Below, piece after piece: positions 5,956-51,578 of a DNA stretch of 64,000 bases. Made by a program: the position numbers and the translations under genes. Position 1 is the stretch's first letter. Each line of letters starts with the position of its first letter. Source of the stretch: Martinezella tropici (lineage in GTDB: Bacteria; Pseudomonadota; Alphaproteobacteria; Rhizobiales; Rhizobiaceae); the NCBI RefSeq assembly GCF_003287875.1, contig NZ_QMKK01000054.1:434001-498000 (forward strand), given 5' to 3'. Under the pieces are notes generated by a model. It had not been told where the DNA came from, made no database searches, and was given only the letters and a program-made list of their open reading frames with translations.

Positions 5956-6975
5956 TCATTTGCGGACAGGGCCGGTGGAGTCGCGCGTGATCAATCTGAC
6001 AGGTATTTTGACGATCGCGTCTTCTCGCGATTCGCCGTCTGCCTCTTGCTCTTCGATCAGGGCCTCCAATCGCCGGACTGCCTGCTCGCCAACACCGCGG
6101 ATCGGCTGCGCGACGGTCGTCAGGCGTGGAAAGACATAGGCGGCCTCCGGCAGATCGTCGAAGCCGATGACGGAATAGTCGCGTGGTACGGAAAAGCCGT
6201 GATCCTGAACGGCATGGATTGCGGCGATCGCCGAAATATCTGTTGTGCCGATGACGGCTGTTACTTCGGGCCTGGAGGCCACCAATTTCCTTGCGAGCGG
6301 ATAGGTCGCCGCGAAGCTTTGTTCCTCGGCCATGGCCACCACCGCCGGTGCTATGCCAATCTCGGCCATTTCCGCCCCGATGCCGCGAAGGCGAAGCTGG
6401 ACCGGCTGGCTATGGGCAGGGGCGCCAACAATGCCGATTACGCGATGGCCGAGGCTGATCAGATGGCGGGCCATCAGGCGCCCGCCCTCCTCATGATCGG
6501 CCATGACGGCATCGCCGGCAATTCCAGTCAGTTCACGGTCTATGGCGACGATCGGGATCTGCGCGTCGCGCAGCGCTTCGAAATGTTCGGTGCTCCCGAA
6601 GGCGCTCGCGACGATGACGCCGTCGACGCGCTGGGATAGGAGCATGGAGATGTAGCGCGCCTCGTGATCCATATTTTCGGCCGTGCTGCAGATCAGGGTC
6701 TGATAACCGCGCCGGAACAGTTCCTGCTCGATGGCATGGGCCAGAATGCCGAAGAAAGGCACGTCGATCGATGGCAGCATCAGCCCGATCATCCGGCTCG
6801 GTGCGCCGCGCAGCATGCGTGCTCCCTTGCTCGGCGTATAGTTGAGCGTGCGGATGGCGGCCTCCACACGCTCCCGCAGCTCCGGAGAGGCATAGCCGCT
6901 ATTATTCAGCACGCGCGAGACTGACGAGACCGATGTTCCTGCGAGCTTGGCGATATGTCTGATGCTGGTGGTCAC
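5956..6975 (-). CDS. LacI family transcriptional regulator
   Basis: A 339-residue LacI/GalR repressor. The N-terminal helix-turn-helix reads IAKLAGTSVSSVSRVLNNSGY, followed by the hinge (LNYTPSKGARMLRG) and a periplasmic-binding-protein-like effector domain. It is convergent with the zinc dehydrogenase (24-base gap) and is the obvious candidate to bind the palindrome at 1056-1073. The inducer is presumably the unknown sugar handled by the cluster. Confidence 0.92.
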   Translation of the reverse strand: MTTSIRHIAKLAGTSVSSVSRVLNNSGYASPELRERVEAAIRTLNYTPSKGARMLRGAPSRMIGLMLPSIDVPFFGILAHAIEQELFRRGYQTLICSTAENMDHEARYISMLLSQRVDGVIVASAFGSTEHFEALRDAQIPIVAIDRELTGIAGDAVMADHEEGGRLMARHLISLGHRVIGIVGAPAHSQPVQLRLRGIGAEMAEIGIAPAVVAMAEEQSFAATYPLARKLVASRPEVTAVIGTTDISAIAAIHAVQDHGFSVPRDYSVIGFDDLPEAAYVFPRLTTVAQPIRGVGEQAVRRLEALIEEQEADGESREDAIVKIPVRLITRDSTGPVRK

Positions 6976-44956: not shown

Positions 44957-45733
44957 TTATCCCCTGCCGACGAGCGGCATCTTCGTTGCCATGACGGTCA
45001 TGGAAAGAACGTTGGCATCGAGCGGCAGCGTGGCCATGTAGACGACGGCGCGGGCGACATGCTCTGCCGAAATCGTCGGCTCTGCCGCGGTCTCCCCATT
45101 TGCCTGCAAGACGCCGGCGCTCATCCGTGCGGTCATGTCGGTGGCGGCATTGCCGATATCGATCTGGCCGCAGGCGATATCGAAGGGACGGCCGTCGAGC
45201 GCCGTCGATTTTGTAAGGCCTGTAATGGCGTGTTTCGTGGCCGTATAGGGTGCGGAATGCGGCCGTGGCGTCGTTGCCGAGATCGAGCCGTTATTGATGA
45301 TACGACCGCCTTGCGGCGTCTGGGCTTTCATCAGACGGAAAGCCTGCTGCGTGCAGAGGAACGCGCCGGTCAGGTTTGCGCCGACAATAGCATTCCATTG
45401 CTCGAAACTCAGTTCCTCCATCGGCACGGCCGGCAGGCCCGTGCCCGCATTGTTGACCAGAAGGTCGAGGCGGCCATAGCGACCTGCAATGGTGTCGAAA
45501 AGGCTGCGGACCGAATTGGGGTCGCTGACATCGGCCGCCACCGCAAGAAATTCTGCCCCTGTCTCCTTGGAGAGCTCGCGGGCGGATTTTTCGAGAACGT
45601 CCGCACGACGCCCCGAGATGACGATCTTGAAGCCGGCCGAGCCGAGTGCCTTGGCGATAGCGCGACCAATGCCGGTGCCGCCGCCGGTCACCAGTGCGAT
45701 TGCGCTTTGTGCGTTCGATGACGCCTCCGTCAT
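44957..45733 (-). CDS. SDR oxidoreductase in the tetronate operon
   Basis: A 258-residue short-chain dehydrogenase with [14 protein letters not shown] and catalytic YTATK. Its ATG overlaps the stop of denD by four bases, so it is the last gene of the tetronate operon. None of the characterised threonate/erythronate pathways I know needs this extra enzyme; it may feed a related acid sugar or polyol into the pathway. Confidence 0.85.
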
Positions 45734-46716
45734 GCGACCCTCCCGTCCAATTCGTCTTCGATATGTGCCTGCAGGATCTCGTCGAAGCTCTGTTCGGCCT
45801 TGAAGCCGAGGTCGCTCGCGCGCTTGGCGTCGAACTGCGTCGCCCAGCCGGAAACGATGCGCTCGATCACCGGATCAGGCTGACGGCGGATCAGCGCAAC
45901 CGCCTTGTCGCCGCCGACACGGCGCAGCGCATCGATCTCATCGGAAACGAGTGCAGAAAGCCCGGGCATGGTAAGATTGCGCCGCGGCCCGACCTTCGCC
46001 GTATCGAGCGTTGCCGCATGCACAAAGAAACCGACCGCCGCCCGCGGGCTTGCGAACCAGTGGCGCACCGTATCGCTGACGGGCAGAACAGCCTCTTTGC
46101 CGACCAGCGGCTCGCGCAGGATGTTGGAAAAGAAGCCGGAGGCCGCCTTGTTCGGAGTGCCGGGGCGAACGCAGATGGTCGGTAGTCGGATGCCGATGCC
46201 ATCGAAAATGCCGCGACGCGAATAATCGGCAAGCAGGAGTTCCGCGATCGCCTTCTGCGTGCCGTAGCTCGTCAGCGGTGCGGTCAGGAATTCGTCACCG
46301 ATAACCTCGGGGAAGGGGGTGCCGAACACCGCAATGGAAGAGGCGAAGATGACGCGCGGCGTATAGGCGGATTTCAGGCCTTGCTGGCGGATGGCTTCGA
46401 AGAGAGCTCGCGTGCCATCGAGATTGACGGAGTACCCCTTGTCGAAGTCGGCCTCGGCCTCGCCGGAGACGATGGCGGCGAGATGGAAGACCATATCCGG
46501 ACGGTCTTCGATGAGTTTTTCCGTAACACCCGGTGTCGCAAGGTCGATCGTCAAAGCCTTGGACACGGATTGAAGCGCTTCCGGCACCGGCGGCTGGAAA
46601 GCGTCGACCAGCGTCAGGCGATCGATAGCCTTGCCGAGAATCGTCGGTTCGGCGGCGATGCGGTTGACAAGCTTGCGGCCGACCATGCCCGCGGCACCCA
46701 GGATCAAAACATGCAT
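45730..46716 (-). CDS. denD: D-erythronate dehydrogenase-like NAD-dependent epimerase/dehydratase
   Basis: A 328-residue extended-SDR enzyme: [13 protein letters not shown] for NAD binding and YGTQKAIAE as the catalytic Tyr-Lys motif. It matches the DenD type found with OtnI, OtnK and OtnC, which oxidises D-erythronate to 2-oxo-tetronate. GGGAGGAAA precedes the ATG at 46716; further upstream in-frame codons belong to the intergenic space. Assignment relies on context as much as sequence. Confidence 0.85.
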
Positions 46717-46810
46717 ATCGGATTTTCCTCCCAGTAGACGAGTGTCAGTCTTCGGGATCAGTCCCGAGTGAATAAGTTTGACGGCCGCATCCGGGACGCC
46801 AACCGCCGTT

Positions 46811-47575
46811 TCATCTGTAAGTCTGCAGCCAGGTGAGCCCCGCATTCGTCGTGGTTGCCGGCCGATATTCCGCGCCGATCGGCCTGTCATAACCAAGCAT
46901 TTCCAGGACCTGCAGAATGTGACGATAATCGATCTCTCCGTGATCCGGTTCGCGCCTGTCCGGAACAGCAGCGATCTGGATATGGCCGATTGCTCCCATA
47001 TGCGCTTGCAGCCTATGTGTCAGATCGCCCTGCATGATCTGGAGGTGATAGCAGTCGAACATCAGTTTGAGATTATCAGCGCCCACTTCAACGATGATGT
47101 CCAGCGCCTGATCGGCAGTCTGGAGGAAGTAGCCTGGTGCATCGCGATAGTTGAGCGGCTCGATCAGGATGGTCGCTCCCATCTTGCTGGCGCGTTCGCA
47201 GGCATAGCGCAGATTGGAAATGAAGGTGGCCCGTGCGTCATCGCCGGCGGTCTTGCCTGCCATCACATGCACATTTCGCGCCCCGATGGCGTCTGCATAG
47301 TCGATAGCCTGATCGATGAGCAGGCGGGCTTCTTCCTCGCGTCCCGGGATGGCGGCAAGTCCGTTGTCGCCGGCCGCGACATTGCCGCGGGCAGTATTGA
47401 GGCCGAGCATGGCGAGGCCGGTTTCCTCCAACGCCCGACGCACGGCTTCAGCGGGCGTGTCGTAGGGGTAGTGGCATTCCACGGCGTCGAAGCCGGCGGC
47501 CTTGGCGGCGCGGATGCCGTCGGGAAGGGAAAGCTCCTGCCACAGGAAACCCAGATTGGCGGAAAAGCGTGTCAT
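46811..47575 (-). CDS. otnI: 2-oxo-tetronate isomerase (hydroxypyruvate isomerase family)
   Basis: A 254-residue TIM-barrel isomerase. MTRFSANLGFLWQEL is the usual OtnI/Hyi start; metal and catalytic residues lie in ILIEPLN, MFDCYHLQIMQGD and the C-terminal GAEYRP. It interconverts 2-oxo- and 3-oxo-tetronate. The ATG at 47575 is preferred; one 12 bases upstream overlaps the otnC stop. Confidence 0.88.
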   Translation of the reverse strand: MTRFSANLGFLWQELSLPDGIRAAKAAGFDAVECHYPYDTPAEAVRRALEETGLAMLGLNTARGNVAAGDNGLAAIPGREEEARLLIDQAIDYADAIGARNVHVMAGKTAGDDARATFISNLRYACERASKMGATILIEPLNYRDAPGYFLQTADQALDIIVEVGADNLKLMFDCYHLQIMQGDLTHRLQAHMGAIGHIQIAAVPDRREPDHGEIDYRHILQVLEMLGYDRPIGAEYRPATTTNAGLTWLQTYR

Positions 47576-47577
47576 GT

Positions 47578-48228
47578 TCAGTCCCATTCCACATCATAAG
47601 TGCGGACGAGATCGGCGATTTGCGCATCCGTCAGCAGCGAAGGATTAGCCCCACGGGTCAAGATGGCAAGCTTAGCCGTCTCTTCCAGTTCTTCGATCGC
47701 ATAGATAGCGGCTTCCAGATCCTTGGCCGAAACGACAGGGCCGTGTGCTGCCAGCATCACGGCGCTGCGCTTGCCGGCAAGGCCGCGAATGGCATCGCCC
47801 ATCGCCGGATCGCCCGGCATGAAATAGGGCAACAACTTCACCTTGCCGAGCTTCATGATCGAATAGGCGGTCAACGGCGGCAGCATGTTGTCGGCATCGA
47901 CGCCGGGCAGGATCGAAAGCGCCACCGAGTGGCTGGAATGAAGATGGACGACGGCGCCTGTCTTTTTCGGTCGTGTCTCATAGAAGGCGGCATGCAGCGG
48001 CATCTCCTTCGTTGGCTTGTCCCCGCCGATCAGGCGCCCTTCATCGTCGAAGAGCGAGAGGCGGGCGGGATCGAGGCGTCCGAAGGAGCTGCCCGTCGGC
48101 GTCACCAAAAGCCGTCCGTCGCTGAGCCGCGCCGAAATATTGCCGGAGGAGCCGGCGGTCAGGCCGCGATCGTAAAGCGATTTGGCCATCATGCAGATCT
48201 GTTCGCGCAGCGCGGCTTCCTCGCTCAT
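47578..48228 (-). CDS. otnC: 3-oxo-tetronate 4-phosphate decarboxylase (class II aldolase family)
   Basis: A 216-residue class II aldolase/adducin-fold enzyme. Zinc ligands are in HLHSSHSVAL and LAAHGPVV; the early GLTAGSSGNISARL is the family phosphate-binding motif. OtnC decarboxylates 3-oxo-tetronate 4-phosphate to dihydroxyacetone phosphate. The start at 48228 overlaps the otnK stop (ATGA); earlier in-frame codons lie inside otnK. Confidence 0.9.
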   Translation of the reverse strand: MSEEAALREQICMMAKSLYDRGLTAGSSGNISARLSDGRLLVTPTGSSFGRLDPARLSLFDDEGRLIGGDKPTKEMPLHAAFYETRPKKTGAVVHLHSSHSVALSILPGVDADNMLPPLTAYSIMKLGKVKLLPYFMPGDPAMGDAIRGLAGKRSAVMLAAHGPVVSAKDLEAAIYAIEELEETAKLAILTRGANPSLLTDAQIADLVRTYDVEWD

Positions 48229-49499
48229 GCCGCCCTCAATCCATCGAAAGCGTCTGTAAAGAAGGTTTCCCCGCCGAAATTGCCGGACTTTAGAGCTAGA
48301 GCGACTGTTTCGCCCCCAAGGGTCGTGAAAGTCCAAGGCACGCCGGGTGCTATTTCCGGCCCGATAGTCAAATGCGCCGCCCCGAGCGCCTGCGTGATCG
48401 CGCCGGAGGTCTCGCCGCCGGCAACGACGAAGCGGCGGGTGCCGCCATCGAACGCCGCGCGGGCGATCTCGGAAAGCGCGTTCTCGACGACCTGGCCCGC
48501 CTTGTCCCGCCCCAACCGCTCCTGCGCCTGCCGTACCTCATCGGGTTCGGCGGTCGCGTAAATGAGTTTCGGCGCATCGGGGGACTGTTGACGCAGCCAT
48601 TCCAGCGCAGTACCGGCGCCTTCCTCTGCAAGCACGACCGGATCGAGCTGCAGGCTGGCGACCTTGCCGGCGTAATTGACAACCTGCTTCCGCGTCATGG
48701 CGGAGCAGCTGCCGGATAGGACGATCGAGCCGCCGGCGACCTTCGGCGGCGCCTGTCTATGTTCGGAGAGGCCAACGAGACCCTGCTCCATGTAGAATCG
48801 CGGAAGCTGGCCGGCAATTGCGCTGCCGCCCGTCAGCAGCGGCATGTCGAAGGATGCCGCCGCGATCGTGCGGAGATCGTCGTCGGATACGGCATCGACG
48901 ATCACATGTTGAATGCCGCCGCTGCCGAGTTGCGCCAACTTTGCTCTCAGCGCCGCTGCACCCTTCGAGACGATATTACGGCTGGCAAGGCCGACAGCGC
49001 CATTCACCTGCGGCGTCAGAAGCCGCAAGAGGCTTGAATCGCGCATCGGCGTCAGCGGATGGTCCTTCATCGGACTTTCCGACAGAGGCTGCTCGCCGAC
49101 GAAGAGATGGCCCATGAAGACGCTACGCCCATTTTCCGGAAAGGCAGGACAATAGATTGTCTGGGTCGCACTCGTCTCCGCCAGCAGCATCTCAGCGACC
49201 GGACCGATATTGCCTTCGGCCGTGCTGTCGAATGTCGAGCAATATTTCCAGAAGAAACGGTTTGCTCCCGCTTCCTTCAGCCAATCCAATGCTTGCCGAG
49301 CCTGCTTCACGGCGATCGCGACCGGCGATGTCCGGCATTTCAGGGCGATGACCTCGAAGGCAGCCGTCTCGTTCCGGTCGCGCTTCTCCGGCGGTATGCC
49401 GATCCGCAGCGAAACGGGCAATCCGCTGCGCGCCAGCAGCGCGGCAAGGTCGGTCGCCCCGGTAAAGTCATCCGCGATGCAACCAAGCAGGAGCGCCAT
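48225..49499 (-). CDS. otnK: 3-oxo-tetronate kinase (DUF1537 family)
   Basis: A 424-residue four-carbon acid sugar kinase. N-terminal GCIADDFTGATDLAALLARSG is the substrate-binding DUF1537_N signature, and the C-terminal nucleotide-binding motif is VVAGGETSGAI. It phosphorylates 3-oxo-tetronate. Follows ltnD by 3 bases and overlaps otnC. Confidence 0.92.
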   Translation of the reverse strand: MALLLGCIADDFTGATDLAALLARSGLPVSLRIGIPPEKRDRNETAAFEVIALKCRTSPVAIAVKQARQALDWLKEAGANRFFWKYCSTFDSTAEGNIGPVAEMLLAETSATQTIYCPAFPENGRSVFMGHLFVGEQPLSESPMKDHPLTPMRDSSLLRLLTPQVNGAVGLASRNIVSKGAAALRAKLAQLGSGGIQHVIVDAVSDDDLRTIAAASFDMPLLTGGSAIAGQLPRFYMEQGLVGLSEHRQAPPKVAGGSIVLSGSCSAMTRKQVVNYAGKVASLQLDPVVLAEEGAGTALEWLRQQSPDAPKLIYATAEPDEVRQAQERLGRDKAGQVVENALSEIARAAFDGGTRRFVVAGGETSGAITQALGAAHLTIGPEIAPGVPWTFTTLGGETVALALKSGNFGGETFFTDAFDGLRAA

Positions 49500-49502
49500 G
49501 GT

Positions 49503-50411
49503 CTAACCTTTCACGCCCGGCAGGCTGGCTCCGCTCTTGGCGGCCAGGATTTTTGCGACGGCTGCGTCATCTTCAAGACCGAGACCCGCTTGCGATGCTT
49601 CAACGAAGAGATCGAGCGCCGTTGTTGCAAGCGGGGTGACGGCACCGGCCTTGCCGGCCTCCGAAGTGACGATGCCGAGGTCCTTGACGAAGATATTGAC
49701 CGCCGAGCGCGGCGTGTAATCGCCTGAAACGATGTGCTCGCCGCGGTTCTCGAACATCCAGGACGAGCCGGCGGAAACACGAATCACCTCGTAGAGCGTT
49801 TTCAGATCGATACCTGCCTTGGCGGCAAGCGTCATGGCCTCGGCTGTCGCGGCGATATGCACGCCGGCCAGCAGCTGGTTGATCATCTTGACCTGCGAAC
49901 CGGCGCCTGGGCGATCGCCGAGCCGGAACACCTTGGTCGAAATGGCATCGAGCACCGCGGATGCGCGATCGAAGGCCTCGGGCATGCCGGACGCCATGAC
50001 GGTGATCTCGCCTGCAAGGGCGCGCACGTGACCGCCGGAGACGGGCGCGTCGATGACGAGCATGCCTGCCGCTTCCAGCCTTTCCGCAATGGCTATTGTG
50101 GCGCTCGGGGCCATAGTGGCGCAGAGCAGGAACACCGTCGACGGCCGCGCTGTTTCCAGCGCACCGTTCTGCCCGAAAAGCACGTCCTCGGTCTGCTTGT
50201 TGTTGACGACATAGACGAGGATCACGTCGGCATCTTCCGCCGCCGACGCCGGCGTCGTGCAGGGTGTGCCGCCGTTCTCGGCAAAACAGGCGAGAGCCTC
50301 GCTGCGAAGATCGCAGCCGCGCACGTTAAAGCCAGCTCTCAGAAGCGACAAAGCGGCGCCCCAGCCCATGGACCCCAGACCGATAACGGCGGCCTTCTTC
50401 GTATTCTGCAC
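49503..50411 (-). CDS. ltnD: L-threonate dehydrogenase-like 3-hydroxyisobutyrate dehydrogenase family enzyme
   Basis: A 302-residue beta-hydroxyacid dehydrogenase. NAD motif VIGLGSMGWG, substrate-binding DAPVSGGHVRA, and the catalytic lysine in GAGSQVKMINQLLAG are present. In clusters with otnK, otnC and otnI this enzyme is LtnD, oxidising L-threonate to 2-oxo-tetronate. First gene of the leftward operon, 21 bases from the 38-bp palindrome. Confidence 0.88.
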   Translation of the reverse strand: MQNTKKAAVIGLGSMGWGAALSLLRAGFNVRGCDLRSEALACFAENGGTPCTTPASAAEDADVILVYVVNNKQTEDVLFGQNGALETARPSTVFLLCATMAPSATIAIAERLEAAGMLVIDAPVSGGHVRALAGEITVMASGMPEAFDRASAVLDAISTKVFRLGDRPGAGSQVKMINQLLAGVHIAATAEAMTLAAKAGIDLKTLYEVIRVSAGSSWMFENRGEHIVSGDYTPRSAVNIFVKDLGIVTSEAGKAGAVTPLATTALDLFVEASQAGLGLEDDAAVAKILAAKSGASLPGVKG

Positions 50412-50432
50412 GGCGCTACCTCTGCGATTTTC

Positions 50433-50470
50433 AGCCTATGTTACCGATACCGGTATCGGTAACATAGGCT
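50433..50470. promoter_or_regulatory. perfect 38-bp palindrome, LacI-type operator of the tetronate operon
   Basis: Each arm of 19 bases is the exact reverse complement of the other; the centre is GATACC-GGTATC and the outer arms read AGCCTATGTTACC. It sits between ltnD (leftward) and the LacI gene (rightward), 21 bases before ltnD. The inner 22 bases look like a standard LacI site, and the outer arms double its length. Strong candidate for control of both directions. Confidence 0.8.
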
Positions 50471-50579
50471 CATTTCTCGAGGAATTGTCAATAGGCTCAT
50501 GTTTGCCTTTTCGGCGAAACATTCTATGAAGGAGAGCGGCATTGTGCCAGCCGCATGGTTCATCGAGGGTTGCTTGGGG

Positions 50580-51578
50580 ATGCGCAAACCCACTCTGGAA
50601 GAAGTCGCGACCGAAGCGGGCGTCAGCAAGATGACGGCGTCGCGCGCTTTGCGCGGCGTTGCCGACGTCTCCAGCGAGACGCGCGACAGGGTGATCGAGG
50701 CGGCAACGCGGATGAACTATGTGGGCAACAGGCTGGCACTCTCACTATCTTCTCAGCGCACCAATCTGGTCGCTGTTGTCGTTCCCAGCATGTCGAACAT
50801 TGTTTTCCCGGAGATTCTTGCCGGCATTTCCGCCGGGCTTGATGGTTCCGGCATGCAGGCCGTGTTCGGCATATCCGATTATGACATGGCAAAGGAGCGC
50901 GACATCATCCGCGATATGCTCTCCTGGCAACCCTGTGCCATCATCGTCACCGGCCTGGATCAACCCGAGGAAACGGTGGACTTGCTCCGCCACGCCAATA
51001 TTCCGGTCATCCAGCTCATGGATCTCGATGGTGCGCCGATCGATTTCAATGTCGGGCTGTCGCATGGCGCGGCGGGCGAAGACATGGCCGAAGCGCTCAT
51101 TGCCGCCGGCCGTTGGCGGTTCGGCTATGTCGGCAGCGCGCTGGAAAAGGACCTGCGTGCCGGCAAACGCAAGGCCGGCTTCGAGCGCATATTGCGTACG
51201 CATGGTCTCGATTTCATCGAGCAGCGGATTGACGATGCCTTTTCCTCAATCGCACTGGGAAAGCGGCTGACGATGGCAATGCTCGCGGCTGCGCCCGATA
51301 TCGATTGCATTTATTATTCGAACGACGACATGGCGAGCGGCGGATTGTTCGCCTGTATGCAGCTCGGCATTGAGGTTCCTGGCCAAGTGTTGATTGCCGG
51401 ATTCAATGGGCTGGATCTGGTCGGCTCCCTGCCGGCGCCGATCGCGACCTCCCGCTCGCCAAGGCGCGCCATGGGCGAGATGGCCGCACAGCTGGTTCGC
51501 CACGCTGTCGCCGGCGAGGGCGATATCGGCGAGAAAACCATCGCGTTCAAACCGACGATCACTGGCATCGAGCGCTAG
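50580..51578 (+). CDS. LacI family transcriptional regulator of the tetronate operon
   Basis: A 332-residue LacI/GalR (GntR-like) repressor. The DNA-binding domain is LEEVATEAGVSKMTASRALRG with the hinge NYVGNRLALSLSS, and the effector domain follows. The start at 50580 gives a normal LacI N-terminus; an upstream GTG near 50544 with AAGGAG before it, or the ATG at 50526, would add 12-18 residues. Divergent from ltnD across the palindrome at 50433-50470. Confidence 0.9.
   Translation: MRKPTLEEVATEAGVSKMTASRALRGVADVSSETRDRVIEAATRMNYVGNRLALSLSSQRTNLVAVVVPSMSNIVFPEILAGISAGLDGSGMQAVFGISDYDMAKERDIIRDMLSWQPCAIIVTGLDQPEETVDLLRHANIPVIQLMDLDGAPIDFNVGLSHGAAGEDMAEALIAAGRWRFGYVGSALEKDLRAGKRKAGFERILRTHGLDFIEQRIDDAFSSIALGKRLTMAMLAAAPDIDCIYYSNDDMASGGLFACMQLGIEVPGQVLIAGFNGLDLVGSLPAPIATSRSPRRAMGEMAAQLVRHAVAGEGDIGEKTIAFKPTITGIER

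Follow-up and report, generated by a model that had tools for sequence, protein, structure and literature searches.

The window, by which we mean the whole stretch of 64,000 nucleotides from Martinezella tropici that was analysed, carries a minus-strand run of genes that profile searches assign to the catabolism of four-carbon sugar acids. Its first gene is ltnD for L-threonate dehydrogenase (49503–50411; NCBIfam NF043037, 412.5 bits, cut-off 350), followed in the operon by otnK for 3-oxo-tetronate kinase (48225–49499; NCBIfam, 530.1 bits, cut-off 350), otnC for 3-oxo-tetronate 4-phosphate decarboxylase (47578–48336; NCBIfam, 298.9 bits, cut-off 250), an otnI-like gene for 2-oxo-tetronate isomerase (46811–47587; NCBIfam, 303.6 bits, below the cut-off of 325) and denD for D-erythronate dehydrogenase (45730–46725; NCBIfam, 366.9 bits, cut-off 325). 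The last of the run encodes an SDR-family dehydrogenase (44957–45733; PF00106).

On the plus strand lies the gene for a LacI-family regulator (50580–51578). The protein scores 52.9 bits against Pfam PF00356 (cut-off 27) and is also above the cut-offs of PF00532 and PF13377; it has the LacI helix-turn-helix and the periplasmic-binding-like domain of a LacI/GalR-family repressor. Its top NCBIfam hit is a GntR model, but the GntR models NF052440 (293.9 against 400) and NF011563 (166.4 against 433) stay below their equivalog cut-offs. Hence, we call the regulator GntR-like and not GntR. The recognition helix, KMTASR in the window, reads GVSKMTASRALR in 61 of 67 proteins and GVSKMTVSRALR in 6. Another LacI-family DNA-binding domain is found at about 6829–6963 of the window on the minus strand (G000:C47:440829-440963), and the genome holds 28 such domains.

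Between the start of ltnD (50411) and the likely start of the regulator gene (50580) there is a perfect 38-bp palindrome (50433–50470), whose arms (50433–50451 and 50452–50470) are 19 nt each, 100% complementary and separated by a loop of 0 nt. The initial annotation had described just such a palindrome between ltnD and its LacI regulator; the arms are free of mismatches, and the NCBIfam and Pfam searches agree with the gene identities. The palindrome is far above chance expectation. Zero-loop perfect palindromes with arms of at least 19 nt are expected 5.2e-7 times per window and 5.7e-5 times per 6.95 Mb, and the longest arm per run was 7 to 11 nt in first-order Markov simulations (n=30). The rest of the window has just two further zero-loop perfect palindromes with an arm of at least 8 nt, both with an arm of 8.

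For the comparison with relatives, loci were picked by the LacI-type regulator protein and never by DNA. The protein search covered 148 genomes of the genus, a named genome collection that gave 59 loci, 394 genomes of the family, 11 of which matched at E 1e-100, and 385 genomes of the class, 3 of which matched at E 1e-85; the resulting 117 upstream stretches came down to 79 after identical ones were dropped. Each was scored with the pattern TGNTAYCGRTAYCGRTAYCGRTANCA, which has 24 scored positions, and a core was called at a score of at least 22. A 26-bp core, TGNTAYCGRTACCGGTAYCGRTANCA (50439–50464 of the window), is conserved in 73 of the 79 non-duplicate loci, window counted, and 56 of the 73 reach the full score of 24. 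Written as TGTTACCGATACCGGTATCGGTAACA, the core has three CG steps at 6-bp intervals. It is seen at every locus where the regulator is more than 53% identical, and its spread takes in Rhizobiaceae, Brucellaceae and more distant alphaproteobacteria. The six loci that lack it are L085, with a regulator 53% identical, and L087, L088, L089, L090 and L099, with regulators 27–44% identical. None of 20 control upstream stretches of paralogues 41–47% identical has the core (top score 17), and several of them carry another palindrome with TGGCAGCGCTGCCA. A search of the window's own genome for the 24-bp inner pattern with up to three mismatches found no second copy. At one mismatch the core matches in 5 of the 385 class genomes, among them the window's own and one with an orthologue, against 3 for a reversed-pattern control; hence, there is no sign that the core is used more widely.

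Across the 73 loci, the invariant columns to the left (−) and right (+) of the centre are −7, −6, −4 to +4, +6, +7, −12, −10, −9, +9, +10 and +12, and the variable ones are −5, +5, −8, +8, −11, +11, −13 and +13. Outside ±14, every column within 8 bases has at most 0.72 bits. The initial annotation had proposed an operator region larger than the usual 14–22 bp of a LacI-type site, and the 26 bp kept in relatives bear this out. They also exceed the inner 20 or so bases whose conservation alone it had set as the outcome that would speak against it. The idea that inner and outer arms are conserved alike fails, as the outer 6 + 6 bases are not kept. We rejected the 38-bp palindrome as a functional unit, because conservation spans 26 bp and the window, with its arm of 19, tops the 73 loci that carry the core.

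The left outer arm (50433–50438) is not conserved, and the right one (50465–50470) shares bases with the −10 region predicted for ltnD on the minus strand. Among the 73 loci, the full outer arms AGCCTA/TAGGCT occur in the window only, so that perfect outer arms are, by this alignment, confined to the window's lineage. An outer symmetric run of at least 5 is found in 5 of the 23 close loci including the window (L002, L010, L014, L020 and L022), of which L010 and L014 are almost identical. With kinship not corrected, the mean outer symmetric run is 1.65 in the 23 close loci against 1.13 for swapped pairs (p 0.0076); the remaining 50 loci average 0.56, with 0.27 for swapped pairs (p 0.0009). This uncorrected comparison mildly favours symmetry beyond the core, and it hints faintly at outer arms shaped by symmetry-driven evolution. 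The window also has a direct repeat, ATAGGCTCAT, at 50464–50473 and 50491–50500. The first copy contains the window-specific right outer arm, where close relatives often have TAGCCT, and the second copy may have served as the template for this arm.

The layout of the core is TGTTAC CG ATAC CG GTAT CG GTAACA, and a 14-bp LacI-type operator is centred on each CG step. Operator A (TGTTACCGATACCG, 50439–50452) is centred between 50445 and 50446, and operator B (CGGTATCGGTAACA, 50451–50464) between 50457 and 50458; their centres are 12 bp apart, and they have only the central two base pairs in common. The junction operator O (CGATACCGGTATCG, 50445–50458), centred between 50451 and 50452, reads the inner half-sites in the opposite direction. 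The core points to more than one dimer site. The initial annotation had suggested a second dimer in the outer arms, and its proposal of a further dimer is supported, with strong conservation over 26 bp and not 38. In A and B the innermost bases are CG, as against TG/CA in a lone operator, and each is therefore an imperfect operator. The canonical LacI-family operator, as described in the article text of Ravcheev 2014 (PMC4052901), is an even palindrome of 16–22 bp with a CG centre. All three operators have the CG centre, but only O is perfectly symmetric, over 14 bp, and A and B are imperfect.

Numbering outward from the CG, operator positions 1, 3, 4 and 6 are fixed and position 2 is mostly a pyrimidine (left strand sense). 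In the outer half-sites position 5 varies freely, as seen in column −11 (T 52, G 17, A 4). Columns ±2 serve as position 5 of A and B and as position 2 of O, columns ±5 serve as position 2 of A and B and as position 5 of O, and columns −8 and +8 belong to A and B alone. Changes were counted on a quickly built protein tree with 67 rows, from which six loci with too little coding DNA were omitted and in which 21 of 64 inner branches have support of at least 95 amid long-branch warnings. The fewest changes are 0 and 0 at −2 and +2, 7 and 8 at −11 and +11, and 7, 9, 2 and 18 at −8, −5, +5 and +8. Columns −5 and +5 show transitions only, whereas transversions fill 9 of 134 cells at −8/+8. This pattern is what would be expected with constraint on all three registers. 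By itself it does not imply a dimer bound at O, and columns ±2 could instead be fixed for contacts at the A/B junction. As a separate matter, we considered compensation between A and B at outer position 2, where the two bases are opposite (one C, the other T) in 39 of 58 rows. These counts are suggestive, yet they come down to 4 independent pairs on starred branches with a median p of 0.25, and we rejected the idea.

The block TGTCAA at 50486–50491, which is TTGACA on the minus strand, is the predicted −35 hexamer of the ltnD promoter, with 1.76–2.0 bits per column over 62 aligned loci. Its distance from the core is constant: GTCAA starts 20–22 bp to the right of the core in 64 of the 73 loci, 63 of these with the full TTGACA, and L016, one of the nine loci outside this count, is a first-match artefact. 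The predicted −10 region (50462–50468, minus strand) reads CTATGT at a spacing of 18 or CCTATG at 17, and lies across the final core bases and the right outer arm. It is a weak match that varies among relatives (CTATGT in 7 of 64 loci, CTTGTT in 19), and a consensus promoter scan left it unflagged, its sole flag being a different minus-strand site. Since the fixed-distance TTGACA sets the −10 region at the edge of the core, repression by blocking RNA polymerase seems likely. Between the operator and the regulator gene there is a possible promoter for the latter, TTGCCT-16-TATGAA (50503–50530, plus strand), which lies in conserved blocks of the 62-locus alignment and whose consensus was read by eye. 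Its TATG (50525–50528), behind TTGCCT, is invariant over the aligned loci and may be the regulator's own −10. In that case the operator would stop ltnD from being transcribed and sit upstream of the regulator's promoter.

In 42 of the 59 named loci ltnD adjoins the regulator on the opposite strand, and wherever ltnD is the neighbour, the core precedes it. In L055 a denD-like gene takes this place, and likewise in L078, where an ABC-transporter ATPase-like frame comes after it (read from translations). Hence, the operator appears to track the pathway and not one gene. Eleven loci without ltnD beside the regulator keep the core (L053–L055, L058–L061, L063, L065, L066 and L069); they belong to the R. 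etli/phaseoli-like and Neorhizobium-like groups.

At L085 (Donghicola) the regulator gene has a lone operator, CTGGTATCGGTACCAG, upstream of it and no three-register core. Judged by its letters, this operator shows the basic unit and is the counterpart of operator A, a natural contrast to the core. Lone operators of the form TGNTAYCGRTANCA occur at 5 places in the window's own genome. Three of the five, which read TGTTATCGATAACA, lie at 2287, 9793 and 12337 of L145 (G000:C47:734500-749500), a second sugar regulon with an ABC transporter, an SDR, a 2-hydroxyacid dehydrogenase and a gluconolactonase-like gene. The LacI-family gene L165 (helix PMTVSR) sits among the three sites, and cross-talk between these sites or L165 and the window's regulator is possible.

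The 26-bp core is probably the operator of the adjacent GntR-like LacI-family repressor, with three overlapping 14-bp registers covering the ltnD promoter. The conserved core, the three-register columns, the −35 hexamer at a fixed distance, the recognition helix and the gene context were observed; from them we infer binding, its mode of occupancy, repression and the effector. The core would act as a 6-bp-periodic array, with A and B at 12 bp and O made from the same inner segments read oppositely. Without the inducing sugar acid, the repressor would sit on the array, with a dimer on each of A and B or a single dimer in whichever register, and would cover the ltnD promoter from the −10 to the start. 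The likely inducer is D-erythronate, L-threonate or a compound derived from either.

As to how dimers would use the array, we tentatively put forward a (CGRTAY)n operator whose inner half-sites are read both ways, on which one dimer shifts between A, O and B, or two bind at 12 bp with a local DNA deformation unlike canonical LacI structures. It is rather unlikely that the core is an ordinary tandem pair, in which only A and B function with two cooperative dimers and O is a by-product of abutting palindromes ending in GG and CC. The cores of L081, L083 and L098 do come near to two abutting 12-bp palindromes, E. coli gntK has a pair of GntR sites of this kind, and CodY shows structurally that two dimers can bind sites that overlap (PMC10415144). 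But in a tandem pair columns ±2 should vary like ±11, and they are unchanged on the tree and never show the letter that prevails in the outer half-sites, T to the left and A to the right. A single long operator is improbable. In this arrangement one dimer would bind at O, with flanking contacts to the outer TGTTAC and GTAACA made alone or by a second protein. O is indeed the most symmetric register, with 7-bp halves free of mismatches in 55 of the 73 cores, but the outer segments are invariant like the inner ones at the expected half-site positions, and a lone 16-bp operator is enough in L085.

That the core serves some protein other than the adjacent regulator is very improbable. L165 among the lone TGTTATCGATAACA sites makes cross-binding conceivable, but the core goes with the regulator and is absent from the paralogue stretches. 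Scarcely credible is a cruciform or hairpin element with selected perfect complementarity, although the initial annotation had raised a cruciform formed by the outer arms. A single strand of the palindrome folds well (−17.4 kcal/mol as DNA, z −8.4), and symmetry in the outer flanks exceeds that of swapped pairs when kinship is left uncorrected. But just 12 of the 73 cores are perfectly symmetric, and in the other 61 one or more bases fail to match across the centre. At columns −8/+8 the two bases are complementary in 19 of 73 cores, where 31.8 are expected and 0.1% of shuffles go as low, and at −5/+5 in 55 against 55.9; −11/+11 (48 against 43.5) and −13/+13 (67 against 63.7) lean slightly to pairing. 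No compensatory pair changes were seen in relatives, and a search for an intrinsic terminator (GC-rich stem, short loop, T run) found 0 in 50380–50620. With few cores symmetric, −8/+8 pairing below and −5/+5 at chance, a cruciform is unlikely as a target of selection, and the perfect symmetry of the core is, on these column counts, not under selection.

The array that we favour has one of its closest known relatives in E. coli GntR. The E. coli helix KMTVSR (GVTKMTVSRFLR) is almost like the KMTASR of the window's regulator, the two proteins are 32% identical over 312 residues, and the half-site TGTTAC is common to the core and the E. coli GntR operator (ATGTTACCGATAACAG in the text of PMC10450161). 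Like the window, E. coli gntKU has two abutting operators before a sugar-acid operon. The gntK sites TGTTACCGATAACA and GTTACCCGTAAC differ from A and B in that their centres are 13 bp apart instead of 12, with no in-register third centre. Pseudomonas GntR binds AGCGCT-type sites, according to the text of PMC12195362, unlike the core. In Brucella, VdtR represses the same erythronate/threonate pathway at the ltnD promoter, but is described there as a DeoR-family protein and not a LacI-family one (PMC10580937). In the open-access literature on the pathway we found no LacI-family regulator for it.

Overlapping operators as such have been described. The article text of Ravcheev 2014 (PMC4052901) reports LacI-family sites that overlap at a distance of about 13 bp upstream of 110 operons, conserved in some orthologous groups, and cites GntR at gntKU among them. 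Two conserved sites at about this distance are also what we find: the centres of A and B lie 12 bp from each other, and the core recurs in 73 of 79 loci. Nothing closer turned up in the open-access literature on overlapping LacI-family operators, and the same article text, supplement and RegPrecise aside, speaks of pairs at about 13 bp without mention of a 12-bp three-register array. With the same two sources aside, the form at the ltnD locus looks like a new variant of the published overlapping sites. CodY, as described in PMC10415144, binds overlapping sites as two cooperative dimers on one side of the DNA with deformation of the minor groove. It belongs to an unrelated protein family, and its 15-nt sites overlap by 6 nt, unlike those in the core. 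For LacI-family dimers, Ravcheev 2014 notes in the article text that at about 13 bp they would overlap in their contact zones, which is hard to fit with the structures, and suggests a special binding mode. How such dimers use these sites is the question that the article leaves, and the core at ltnD, together with the lone operator of L085 as a contrast, is a clean natural case for asking it: one dimer or two, on A and B or on O.
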